A stretch of 27,198 bases of DNA from a virus. The notes beneath the pieces are model-generated. The model ran no database searches, was not told the origin of the DNA, and was given only the letters and a program-made list of their open reading frames with translations. Within the stretch, counting starts at the first letter, position 1. The number at the start of each line of letters is the position of its first letter. This document shows positions 5,780 through 8,638 of this stretch, in pieces. A program made the position numbers and the translations under genes. The DNA lies in IMG/VR virus record IMGVR_UViG_3300037041_000633, positions 1 to 27,198 of that record. The stretch is one strand, 5' to 3'.

Positions 5780-6763
5780 TTAAAAAGGTAAGTTTTGATT
5801 GTTTAAAGTGTGATAAGATTCTGAAAAACTTTTCAGCTCAGTAATTGGTTTCTTTATTTCGTGTTTTTCTTGTGCGTAAATGTTGCTGTGTTGATTAGGA
5901 TTGTTTGAGTCTAAATCATAATATCTGAATTTATTAATATCAAATCTTAAATTGATCATTCCTATTTTACCAATACTGCGAGGTTTAATCTTATTAAAAT
6001 ATATCTCGCATTGATTGTCGCTTAAATCCTCACGATGTACTGTTATCATACATTTTCCACTGTTAAACCATTCTGAGCCACCTTTCAAATCGTATGGACC
6101 TGGTGGTGTTCGCTTACCGTTTACTTTTTCCGTCAACTTTGGGTGTATAATAGTATGCAAATGTAAATCATTATCCTCAGCTAACTGATTTCTATACGGT
6201 AAAACAAATTCTAAATATTGAGCATAACCTCCATAACTTGAATAATCGTGGCTTAAATCCTTCCAACTGTCTATACTTGCCGTATGCAATCCTTCCGTTT
6301 TCTTTAATGTAACAGCATAATCCCAAAATTCAACAGCTGACATTTTCGCTTTTAAATCACTTTTTGTGAGTACTTTAAAATAATGACAAACCCATTCGCT
6401 TGCTGTACTGATTTCACTATCTGTAATTGTGTTATGTGCATCAGGATTAAATGATTTGCCCGTCTTTTTGTGAATTAAATCCGCTATTATTTCAATGTTA
6501 TTACCAACATCAGGAAAGTAAATTAAATGTTTCCAATCGTAAAATAAAGAAGTATTTATCAAACATTCCATAAGAAATTGAGTTTTACCACTCATTGGAT
6601 ACCCTGTCCAATCTGTACAATTACCTAACTGCATTGAATAATTATCTTTCATTTTATCAAATCCAAGAAACATCCCTTTATCGTGGTACGTCTTTTTGTA
6701 GTTTTGTAACGCATTGAGTATCTCACTCGCTTTCGTTATCTTAAATCCTTTCAAATTATCCAT
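5780..6763 (-). CDS. DnaB/RecA-fold replicative helicase-like ATPase
   Basis: A 327-residue P-loop ATPase. The Walker A motif is TGYPMSGKTQF (Lys60 counting from this start). Later blocks fit DnaB-type helicases: TASIDSWKDLS as the Walker B region, THTIIHP-like LHTIIHPK, then LKGGSEWFNSGKCMITVHRE and KIKPRSIGKIG, which resemble DnaB motifs 3-4. The DnaB N-terminal domain is absent. ATG at 6763 gives an 8-base overlap with the upstream gene; an ATG 8 codons earlier (6787) is possible. The C terminus ends NNQNLPF, close to the SSB-tip-like end of the phage OB protein. It should act as the fork helicase together with the DnaD-like protein before it. Confidence 0.8.
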   Translation of the reverse strand: MDNLKGFKITKASEILNALQNYKKTYHDKGMFLGFDKMKDNYSMQLGNCTDWTGYPMSGKTQFLMECLINTSLFYDWKHLIYFPDVGNNIEIIADLIHKKTGKSFNPDAHNTITDSEISTASEWVCHYFKVLTKSDLKAKMSAVEFWDYAVTLKKTEGLHTASIDSWKDLSHDYSSYGGYAQYLEFVLPYRNQLAEDNDLHLHTIIHPKLTEKVNGKRTPPGPYDLKGGSEWFNSGKCMITVHREDLSDNQCEIYFNKIKPRSIGKIGMINLRFDINKFRYYDLDSNNPNQHSNIYAQEKHEIKKPITELKSFSESYHTLNNQNLPF

Positions 6764-7448
6764 AAGGATTGAATTTTGATTGTTCACTAACTACGGTATT
6801 TACATATTTTGAAAAATTAGTGTTTACTAAAAAATGTTTAGGTATATCAAGCGAATTTATTTTTACCCATTCTGAATCTACCATTACTTTGTATGCGTGT
6901 TCAAAATCTTCTGGAGTGTATTCATCTTTTTTTAATTCTTTAAGATTATTTAAATCTGTTTTTGTTAATGTTTTAAAATTTCCTTTAACGCCTTTATATT
7001 TAAATTTCATTTGATTAAACCACATAATAAATTTTTCACTTAAAACAGCGTCAGCTTGTTTATTTGTTATATTGTTAGTTTGTTTATCTATGGTATCAAG
7101 TGCTTTGGTAGGTGCTTTGGTAGTTGCTTCATCAAGTGCTTTGGTACTTGCTTTGTCATTTTTTGATAGGGCAATTACTTTACTTTGGTGTTGGTTTTTG
7201 CTTTCAGTTACTATTTTTATAAATCCAAAATCGACCAAATCACTCAAAGTTTTTTTGTATGTGTTATAAGATCCAATTCCTAATGATTCCATTGTTACTG
7301 ATGTTGGTAATCCAAATTCTTGTTTTTGTCCTAATCTATTCCACCGGTCAATTAAATAACAATAAAAATCCGAATGAATAGCTTTTACTTTTGAGGGGTT
7401 TTCAAATTTGAAATTATACCAGTCCCTTATTAAATTATATCCATTCAT
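6756..7448 (-). CDS. DnaD-like replication initiator / helicase loader
   Basis: A 230-residue protein in two parts. Residues 1-100 look like a winged helix (SVTMESLGIGSYNTYKKTLS, then LVDFGFIKIV), a pattern found in phage initiation proteins. A low-complexity linker (about 102-130, KASTKALDEATTKAPTKALD) follows, then a C-terminal domain with DEYTPEDFEHAYKVMVDSEW and IPKHFLVNTNFSKYVN, reminiscent of the DnaD-type domain. The gene directly precedes and overlaps the helicase, the usual arrangement for an origin-binding initiator and loader. The homology is recognised by architecture only, so the exact family is uncertain. Confidence 0.7.
   Translation of the reverse strand: MNGYNLIRDWYNFKFENPSKVKAIHSDFYCYLIDRWNRLGQKQEFGLPTSVTMESLGIGSYNTYKKTLSDLVDFGFIKIVTESKNQHQSKVIALSKNDKASTKALDEATTKAPTKALDTIDKQTNNITNKQADAVLSEKFIMWFNQMKFKYKGVKGNFKTLTKTDLNNLKELKKDEYTPEDFEHAYKVMVDSEWVKINSLDIPKHFLVNTNFSKYVNTVVSEQSKFNPYG
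7095..7156 (-). repeat. Short repeats in the initiator linker
   Basis: On the minus strand the block ACCAAAGCAC(C/T)T occurs three times, twice followed by TGAT, coding TKALD, TKAP and TKALD in the linker of the initiator gene. It is an in-frame imperfect repeat that could expand or contract by slippage without breaking the reading frame. Confidence 0.6.
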
Positions 7449-7450
7449 AA

Positions 7451-7717
7451 TTAAAGCATTAAAGAAATTTGTTTTTTTAACTCCCTGCTTAATTTAATGG
7501 CCGTTGGTTTATCTAAAACAATATACTGTAAAGAATCCCAGCCTTCACTGTATTGTGAAGTATCATCTATTTCAATATACAATTTTTGATATTGATTAAG
7601 ATAAATTTGCATTTGTTTATCTGTGTTGTTTGTTTCCTCATCACCACAAAAAATCAATTTTACATTTCCCATAATAAACCGCATTTTATTTAAAAACACG
7701 TAAAAAGTTAAGTGCAT
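7451..7717 (-). CDS. Hypothetical protein with strong Shine-Dalgarno site
   Basis: An 88-residue protein. The start at 7717 is supported by a perfect GGAGG seven bases upstream; a second possible start is Met16 (7672, MGNVKLIFCG). The first 15 residues (MHLTFYVFLNKMRFI) are hydrophobic and basic; the rest is mixed, with DDTSQYSEGWDSLQYIVLDK and an amphipathic C-terminal helix. No family recognised. It sits behind a promoter (7816-7848) and an unusually long structured leader, so it is probably regulated after transcription starts. It is followed after two bases by the DnaD-like gene and so could control expression of the replication operon. Confidence 0.6.
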   Translation of the reverse strand: MHLTFYVFLNKMRFIMGNVKLIFCGDEETNNTDKQMQIYLNQYQKLYIEIDDTSQYSEGWDSLQYIVLDKPTAIKLSRELKKQISLML

Positions 7718-7724
7718 AAAAAAA

Positions 7725-7729
7725 CCTCC
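7725..7729 (-). promoter_or_regulatory. Perfect Shine-Dalgarno GGAGG
   Basis: The minus strand reads GGAGG, then seven T, then ATG at 7717. This is an ideal SD core and spacing. It is unusual here because other genes in the window have only A-rich leaders, as expected for Bacteroidota, where the anti-SD of 16S rRNA is normally shielded. Confidence 0.75.
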
Positions 7730-7741
7730 ATACTCAATAGG

Positions 7742-7806
7742 GATTCGACGTCCTACTTTGTATAAAGGTTAATTAAAATTCCTTTTGTTACTATAATGTC
7801 GAATCG
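7742..7806 (-). other. Candidate structured 5' leader RNA
   Basis: The gap 7718-7837 holds a perfect 8-base inverted repeat, GATTCGAC (7805-7798) and GTCGAATC (7749-7742), enclosing 48 bases. Inside it, GTA-ACA-AAAGG (7792-7781 region) can pair with CCTTT-A-TAC (7769-7760 region). An RNA starting from the promoter at 7816 would fold into a two-level stem ending just before the SD site. It has no tRNA cloverleaf. A control leader or a small RNA are both possible. Confidence 0.5.
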
Positions 7807-7815
7807 TAACGTGTA

Positions 7816-7848
7816 CAAATATACAAATAATATCTAATTAAATAGCAA
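7816..7848 (-). promoter_or_regulatory. Candidate promoter TTG-N22-TATATTTG
   Basis: The minus strand has TTG (7848-7846), 22 bases, then TATATTTG (7823-7816). It overlaps the end of the DGQHR gene. A start near 7809 would give a leader of about 90 bases for the 7451-7717 gene, and drive the replication genes beyond. Confidence 0.6.
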
Positions 7849-8638
7849 TTGGAAAAGATTTTTCAACGTCTTTATTGTATCGCAATACTTTCACATCTTG
7901 TCGTAATCTGTAGAAGTTCCAAGCCTTAATTATTAGTGCGTTTTTATGCTCTCTATCCATTTTACTTGTGCCTGTTCTGTCTTCTATCAATTTGTTTCTA
8001 AGCAAATAAATAACGTTGTTTGTCACATCTCTACCAGTGCATAATTCGTTAAAAAATAACTCGCAATCTGCTGAACTTTTAGTATTAAAATGAATCATAA
8101 ACGAACCGATTAAAGTGGGGCTCATTATCTTAGCAAATTGTACATAATAGCCGTATGTTTTGGAAGCAATATCTAAATAATAATCCTCATTTTCTTTAAA
8201 TTTATTCAACAATTCTACGTTTGTTAATGTGACATTCCCTCTATTACTTCTATTCCCATTACTTAACGCTTGAGAAAATTGTATAATTGGAGGAATTAAA
8301 CTTGAGTATTGAGCACCCGCAATGTAAAATACATCATTAGATGTTCTTGTTGTTCCAGAATCTAATACCACAAATACATCATCATTCAAATCAAATGCAA
8401 CATACATACTTAATTCAACATTTGCCTTTATAATTGCTCTTAACCGATGTTGACCATCTAATAACTTATTTGTTTTTGATAATTTAATCAATTCTCCAGT
8501 GTCGTTTTTCCAATTACCTTTCAGCATTTCGTTTGCATATTTCGTAACGATTGCATCTTTAAATTTACGGTTGTTTAGATTCATACTTAACATTTGTTCC
8601 GCTACTTCCTTGTTGATTTTTACTAATTCTACTCTCAT
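7838..8638 (-). CDS. DGQHR (ParB/DndB-like) domain protein
   Basis: A 266-residue protein with LLDGQHRLRAI at residues 59-69, the signature of DGQHR/ParB-N-like proteins. The following segment VAFDLNDDVFVVLDSGTTRTSNDV keeps the pattern of phage homologues in which a short beta domain precedes a helical C-terminal half. Relatives include ParB-type nucleotide-binding proteins and DndB, a regulator of DNA phosphorothioation; no Dnd genes are seen here. The role in the phage is unknown; DNA binding or nucleotide-dependent control of replication is plausible. The ATG lies five bases after the previous gene. Confidence 0.75.
   Translation of the reverse strand: MRVELVKINKEVAEQMLSMNLNNRKFKDAIVTKYANEMLKGNWKNDTGELIKLSKTNKLLDGQHRLRAIIKANVELSMYVAFDLNDDVFVVLDSGTTRTSNDVFYIAGAQYSSLIPPIIQFSQALSNGNRSNRGNVTLTNVELLNKFKENEDYYLDIASKTYGYYVQFAKIMSPTLIGSFMIHFNTKSSADCELFFNELCTGRDVTNNVIYLLRNKLIEDRTGTSKMDREHKNALIIKAWNFYRLRQDVKVLRYNKDVEKSFPIAI

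Follow-up and report, generated by a model that had tools for sequence, protein, structure and literature searches.

The stretch of DNA analysed here (the window) comprises positions 1 to 27,198 of the IMG/VR virus record IMGVR_UViG_3300037041_000633. On its minus strand, a small ORF for a beta-rich protein is followed by a gene for an O-like replication initiator and by a DnaB-like helicase gene, which is the gene order given in the original prediction for this locus. Upstream, a ParB-like phage protein is encoded (7838-8638, minus strand, phrog_5931), which is related at ~30% identity to proteins of Vibrio, Mycobacterium and other phages; no relatives of this protein were found in bacterial genomes. 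The region between the ParB-like gene and the first ORF was proposed to be a structured leader with its own promoter, an 8-base perfect inverted repeat and a rare Shine-Dalgarno (SD) sequence, acting as an undescribed control element (Table 1).

Table 1. Features of the leader and of the genes behind it in the window
Feature	Position	Strand	Basis
-7 promoter box TATATTTG, Bacteroidota-type TAnnTTTG	7816-7823	-	Sequence; RNA element begins 3 nt downstream
Whole structured RNA element, transcript 5' end to end of U run	7717-7812	-	Covariance model and compensatory changes
Hairpin P1, GTTAC (7806-7810) / GTAAC (7787-7791), K1 in loop	7787-7810	-	91.4% of cells paired; double changes at 6 of 6 pairs
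K1, GATTCGAC, loop half of kissing helix	7798-7805	-	96.7% paired with K2
Linker AAAAGGAATTTTAATT, A/U-rich	7771-7786	-	Alignments: kept within class, not between classes
Hairpin P2/P3	7723-7770	-	P2 95.8% and P3 86.5% of cells paired; double changes at all pairs
P2 arms AACCTTTATAC / GTATGGAGGTT	7760-7770 / 7723-7733	-	
Purine internal loop between P2 and P3	7758-7759 / 7734-7735	-	
P3 arms AGTAGG / CCTATT	7752-7757 / 7736-7741	-	
K2, GTCGAATC, P3 loop, pairs with K1	7742-7749	-	Kissing-helix pairing as for K1
GGAGG, part of P2 3' arm	7725-7729	-	Non-conserved: GAAGG, AAAGG, AGGGG or AGGGT in relatives
U run, terminator-like, directly after or at P2 base	7718-7724	-	T-richness after P2 across instances
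First ORF of operon, small beta-rich protein	7451-7684	-	Likely start 7684 or 7672, not 7717: homologue starts (L002, L004, L043, L062)
Replication initiation O-like gene	6756-7448	-	phrog_18020, E 5e-5
DnaB-like helicase gene, survey anchor	5780-6787	-	phrog_239 primase/helicase, E 3e-14

Inspection of the letters confirmed GGAGG 7 nt before the ATG at 7717, and the motif was indeed rare, since none of the other starts among the 43 checked had GGAGG in the 20 nt before it. Its predicted anti-SD pairing, -10.5 kcal/mol, was the strongest among these starts. Near to it, at -10.2 kcal/mol, was GGGTGG upstream of a gene for a DnaA-HTH protein (9322, minus strand). As for the promoter, the -7 box was present and conserved in relatives, but a -33 box was not evident. 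The leader folded better than its shuffles (z = -2.2). On the minus strand it reads TATATTTG-tac-ACGTTAC-GATTCGAC-ATTATA-GTAAC-AAAAGGAATTTTAATT, directly followed by AACCTTTATAC-AA-AGTAGG-AC-GTCGAATC-CCTATT-GA-GTATGGAGGTT-TTTTT-ATG. The minimum-energy fold consisted of two hairpins, GTTAC/GTAAC and AACCTTTATAC...GTATGGAGGTT, and the two copies of the repeat lay one in each loop; GGAGG was therefore assigned to the 3' arm of the second hairpin. The P2/P3 hairpin had a predicted energy of -18.2 kcal/mol.

Sister phages were obtained through the first ORF and the upstream ParB-like gene. Four of them shared the same first gene, and two further phages carried the same upstream gene, quite different following genes and the same hairpin arrangement written in different letters. 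More relatives were brought in by a pattern derived from the linker. It was observed that the ParB-like protein was 97-98% identical in phages with unrelated next genes, which places a sharp mosaic junction at the element. In the first 6 sequences 94.8% of cells were paired and 10 pairs were changed on both sides; with 10 sequences the values were 96.2% and 19 pairs. The alignment of 39 distinct sequences had 93.6% of cells paired and compensatory (double) changes at 29 of the 30 pairs, and gave a covariation score of 0.746, compared with 0.213 after shuffling and at most 0.106 after sliding. The covariation in related phages that had been suggested as a check was thus found. Divergent classes could not be aligned by MAFFT, and some inserted letters were omitted from alignment A11 (model R2).

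The inverted repeat was present and perfect as claimed, but it was not the stem of one hairpin. A single long hairpin was ruled out, because the two hairpins covary each on its own, and the repeat was assigned to a contact between their loops. In this kissing helix, double changes were found at seven of the eight pairs, and 289 of the 296 cells were Watson-Crick, with no G-U pair in the 296. Since these pairs had never been included in any model or search pattern, their pairing was an independent test. The K sequences varied between phages; for example, L002 had CGTCTCAC/GTGAGACG where the window has GATTCGAC/GTCGAATC. In the nested helices, 80 G-U pairs were counted versus 7 A-C mismatches, and the functional molecule was therefore taken to be RNA with the same sense as the genes that follow. 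Conservation as DNA, such as an operator or a recombination site, was excluded by the compensatory changes together with these counts. On the comparative evidence, the leader is a ~95-nt RNA composed of hairpin 1, an A/U-rich linker, hairpin 2 and a U run, in which the loops pair mutually over 8 bp, all Watson-Crick. Were hairpin 1, the kissing helix and hairpin 2 stacked end to end, the linker of 11-16 nt would need to be nearly fully stretched over ~30 bp. This geometry points to a bend in the RNA or to a groove that takes up the linker.

The leader had been predicted to be an SD-dependent sensor of ribosome state responding to protein bS21. Ribosomes of F. johnsoniae lacking bS21 favour strong SDs, as in rpsU, whose SD pairing is below -13 kcal/mol, and control by such ribosomes is apparently confined to rpsU (PMC9976891). 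Like the bS21-controlled rpsU leader of Flavobacterium, the window has an SD-like GGAGG before an ATG, with no second gene preceded by one, in a host rarely using SDs; in contrast to that leader, its site is weaker (-10.5 versus below -13 kcal/mol), non-conserved, buried in a hairpin and placed before a non-conserved start codon (PMC9976891). The GGAGG is locked in P2 with a computed opening cost of ~8.5 kcal/mol. In L022, which carries the same element and an upstream protein 98% identical, the site is GAAGG with an anti-SD pairing of -4.2 kcal/mol, and in L004 it is AAAGG with -4.7 kcal/mol. The ATG at 7717 is missing in L002, L004 and L005, which retain the ATGs at 7684 and 7672, and homologues begin at one of these two positions, the very kind of outcome, no use of the 7717 start, that had been named beforehand as refuting the proposal. 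An rpsU-type leader would be expected to keep both SD and start codon, whereas these sister phages have GAAGG or AAAGG and lack the ATG. In other members, the first ORFs begin 5-47 nt past the hairpin behind A-rich leaders, with no SD near the start. Because of the weak pairing in sister phages, the locked site and the retained 7684/7672 starts, GGAGG was interpreted as a chance state of two stem positions that tolerate G-U. A bS21 switch is therefore hardly credible, and the mechanism originally proposed was abandoned. Judged by these comparisons, the odd ribosome-binding site is a by-product of structured RNA, which illustrates how an SD motif seen in a single genome can arise.

So that relatives were not picked by their RNA, loci were chosen by the helicase gene two places downstream, which had 335 relatives; 80 loci were collected and 78 searched by the covariance model. 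The window element scored 103.9 bits (E 9e-22) and was the sole strong match within the window. Among the 78 loci there were 38 strong matches of 50-106 bits, all on the strand of the gene and mostly 0.7-1.0 kb ahead of the helicase. A purely structural descriptor, which combined the promoter box, a first hairpin carrying K1 and a second one carrying K2 and followed by the U run, revealed divergent classes missed by the covariance model, including cultured phages. It placed the element at 54 of the 65 helicase loci that reached far enough upstream, and inspection added at least four more at the same place (L061, L074, L079 and L105), which raises the count to 58 of 65 or more. Applied to 1.09 Mb of fetched DNA, the descriptor found 53 distinct sequences, nearly all genuine on inspection (at least one, the long-span match in L124, was doubtful, and L002 was listed twice), compared with none in an equal amount of shuffled DNA. 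A relaxed descriptor without the U-run requirement gave ~17 false matches per Mb of shuffled DNA and was used solely on known sites. Compared across its relatives, the element is present in nearly all related flavobacterial phages, at the very start of the DNA-replication operon.

A nucleotide-similarity search of cultured phages revealed no relatives; these were found through the structural descriptor only. The version in FCL-2 (at about 37,487-37,584 of KM873719), GTAG[ATCATCCAC]CTAC ... [AGTGGATG], and that in tooticki/lillamy, TAATG[AAGTGAGACG]CATTA ... [CGTCTCAC], were unrelated in sequence; the letters of loops and linker were conserved within the main class, not between classes. Versions likewise unrelated in sequence were found in Polaribacter phage Danklef_1 and in Flavobacterium phage 11b; in the latter the element was the only strict match when the whole phage was scanned. 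Flavobacterium phage FCOV-F56 (L138) had two copies, 35378-35486 and 38599-38703, both in intergenic gaps; the U run of the first was displaced by 3 nt and the second stood before a non-initiator gene. The descriptor scan of Bacteroides phage B124-14 gave no match with the promoter box. A search of 397 Flavobacteriaceae genomes, insensitive because few candidates were scored per genome, gave one match (L048, 315-411), possibly a prophage or a phage contig within a bacterial assembly. This copy, in a Flavobacteriaceae sample genome, had the longest kissing helix, 10 bp (AGCCTTCGAC/GTCGAAGGCT), and lay only ~7 nt before the replication initiator. In members of divergent classes (L070, L072, L082, L091, L099, L129 and L137) the purine internal loop of the second hairpin was AGUA/GAA instead of the main-class GAA/GGA, apparently an exchange of structural modules at one place. 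The AGUA/GAA loop presumably resembles the sarcin-ricin (bulged-G) motif.

A TAnnTTTG box ended 2-4 nt before it in 31 of 36 distinct members, compared with ~2% of background windows. After P2, there was a median of 6 T in 8 nt (54 distinct instances), and the P2/P3 hairpins of seven members had energies of -15 to -20 kcal/mol. Between the hairpin and the start of the first ORF with 40 aa or more lay 5-47 nt, a gap so short that no further promoter fits between them. The element thus lies between a promoter and the first gene and has a stable hairpin directly before a U run, as in an intrinsic terminator. A simple terminator scan did not flag the window site, because the loop limit of the scan is 8 nt. 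With covariation, conserved placement and a conserved promoter box, the proposal of an undescribed control element, a structured leader before initiator and helicase genes, was strongly supported.

Because hairpin and U run follow immediately on a promoter and lead straight into an operon that has no second one, we propose that the leader is a transcription attenuator heading the replication operon, in which the K1-K2 contact sets readthrough (probability of roughly 0.5). The helices, kissing contact, sense strand, promoter, U run and position that enter this proposal come from comparison of the members; termination, regulation by the kissing contact and the identity of the effector we infer. 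The element would form the 5' end of the early transcript of flavobacterial phages. Hairpin 1 would fold as soon as it is transcribed and present the K1 loop, and the second hairpin, with a K2 loop exactly complementary to K1 and a U run at its end, would act as intrinsic terminator. RNA polymerase starting from the TAnnTTTG promoter would either stop after ~90 nt, releasing a compact kissing-hairpin RNA, or read through into the initiator/helicase operon, and the formation or timing of the K1-K2 contact would most likely fix the fraction that reads through. K2 could pair with K1 before the 3' arm of P2 exists, so that the contact may help or delay the terminator hairpin. The element would in this way probably control how much of the replication operon is transcribed.

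An antiterminator helix between linker and P2 was also considered. The pairing AAAGG:CCUUU looked attractive in the class of the window, but off-diagonal pairs scored nearly equally and many members were without it; linker:P2 pairing was 9.5 versus 9.1 between unrelated members (p = 0.048), which did not support such a helix.

A promoter and a terminator-like end bracketing a compact RNA could also mark a stand-alone small RNA of ~90 nt with targets in trans, either in the host or in the phage; it might serve as decoy to a host protein or counter a defence system, and the replication genes would be expressed by leak-through. The two copies in FCOV-F56 fit this reading, and so does L011 (9562-9656), where unrelated genes follow. 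Yet the element always lies 5-47 nt before the first ORF of an operon that has no second promoter, and the two loops, with which such RNAs usually bind their targets, are already occupied by their mutual pairing; we regard a primarily trans-acting function as rather unlikely. In L011, and also in L017 and L018, the same RNA class stands before a 132-aa protein and PAPS-reductase-like and ParB-like genes, and L011 is an exception in that the genes after the element do not resemble a replication module. Very improbable is a 5' stabiliser or a non-regulatory structure protecting the mRNA end, which would suit a compact fold at the very 5' end but would leave the conserved second hairpin with its U run unexplained.

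The proteins behind the element were found to change while the RNA stays. The first ORF encodes many unrelated proteins of 57-77 aa, or the initiator itself, and the initiators downstream belong to several unrelated families (O-like, DnaD-like, DUF6291-like and primosomal). A model in which the first small protein or the initiator regulates its own expression was therefore rejected, since both are replaced by unrelated families behind the same RNA, or are absent. A downstream protein is a less likely partner than the host machinery or the RNA, and because conservation of the RNA does not extend to the genes behind it, either the RNA or a host factor would read the set point of the proposed attenuator. 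The small proteins exchanged directly behind the RNA (7451-7684 in the window, and the first ORFs of L043 to L118) are unrelated and mostly beta-rich; in position and diversity they recall anti-defence proteins.

Conservation whichever genes follow points to host RNA polymerase as partner, which is what a factor-independent antiterminator like the HK022 put RNA would need. Such a leader would remain on the polymerase and let it pass the U run of the leader as well as terminators further along the early operon; put RNA suppresses distant terminators by way of the beta' zinc-binding domain of RNA polymerase. Put RNAs are ~70 nt long with two stem-loops beside early promoters (PMC9378689), and here too an early promoter is immediately followed by two hairpins, with replication genes behind them. 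However, the U run directly after the second hairpin resembles a terminator, and most records have one copy versus two in HK022, which makes antitermination of this kind unlikely. It is conceivable, as a tentative proposal, that the leader either recruits or modifies host RNA polymerase in a put-like manner or times terminator folding by a tertiary contact, and in either case would represent a new class of RNA with a direct action on transcription in Bacteroidota, by which nearly all flavobacterial phages would turn on replication with no protein devoted to the task.

Control of copy number or immunity of the P4 CI/c4 type would require a terminated RNA that pairs in trans with leaders still being transcribed from the same phage and causes them to terminate. 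The leader does contain complementary segments, K1 and K2, within a replication operon, and the K sequences differ between phages; the replication genes of P4 are described as repressed by premature termination, with CI RNA pairing with seqA and seqC (PMC4825925). Nevertheless, K1 and K2 are already paired in cis (96.7%), FCL-2 is virulent (PMC8092290) and would not need lysogenic immunity, and no match to the Rfam c4 model was obtained. This type of control is quite improbable for the element, and the cis-acting attenuator remains our preferred reading.

None of the 4227 Rfam models, riboswitches and ribozymes included, matched in the window at the curated cut-off, and in L001, L006, L007 and L014 none, c4 included, overlapped the element even at E values as high as 5. 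Type III toxin-antitoxin repeats and a leader peptide were rejected, as there are no repeats and no ORF within the element. No description of it was found in the open-licence literature of PubMed Central. The element belongs to a known broad kind, the leader RNAs of phages whose end resembles a terminator, and within this kind it is a new RNA family, unusual in its internal kissing contact. Next to nothing is known of the timing of early genes in Bacteroidota phages. Here a strongly covarying and widespread RNA, absent from Rfam, is fixed at the head of the replication operon, and it is unannotated in cultured, growable phages (FCL-2, FCOV-F56, tooticki/lillamy, 11b and Danklef). RNA-level control of phage replication in Bacteroidota thereby becomes directly testable by point and compensatory mutations.

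In ColE1, RNA I and RNA II form loop-loop complexes through fully paired kissing loops of 6-10 bp; the element is alike in its fully paired loops, but ColE1 joins two RNAs whereas here both loops belong to one leader. The c4 RNA of P1-P7, which we take to be a leader of an antirepressor operon with internal complementary segments, can likewise be compared with the element. P4 CI RNA, as far as the source describes it, shares the replication-operon leader with internal complementary segments and premature termination (PMC4825925). P4 CI and c4 are processed antisense RNAs in lysogens, whereas the segments of the element pair in cis, and virulent phages are among its carriers. The putL/putR RNA of HK022 (PMC9378689) is likewise a phage leader with two hairpins just downstream of an early promoter, before early and replication genes; the present element, known from comparison of sequences and with no sequence relation to put claimed, differs in its length of ~95 nt, its 8-bp kissing helix, its terminal U run and the phylum of its host. 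IsrK of Gifsy-1 activates translation in trans, and a kissing architecture is not reported for it in the sections of the source that describe it (PMC4825925). In the same account, one phage promoter of Gifsy-1 yields two products, a short RNA that ends at a terminator and a readthrough mRNA that covers phage genes downstream (PMC4825925), which is the arrangement proposed here for the element.
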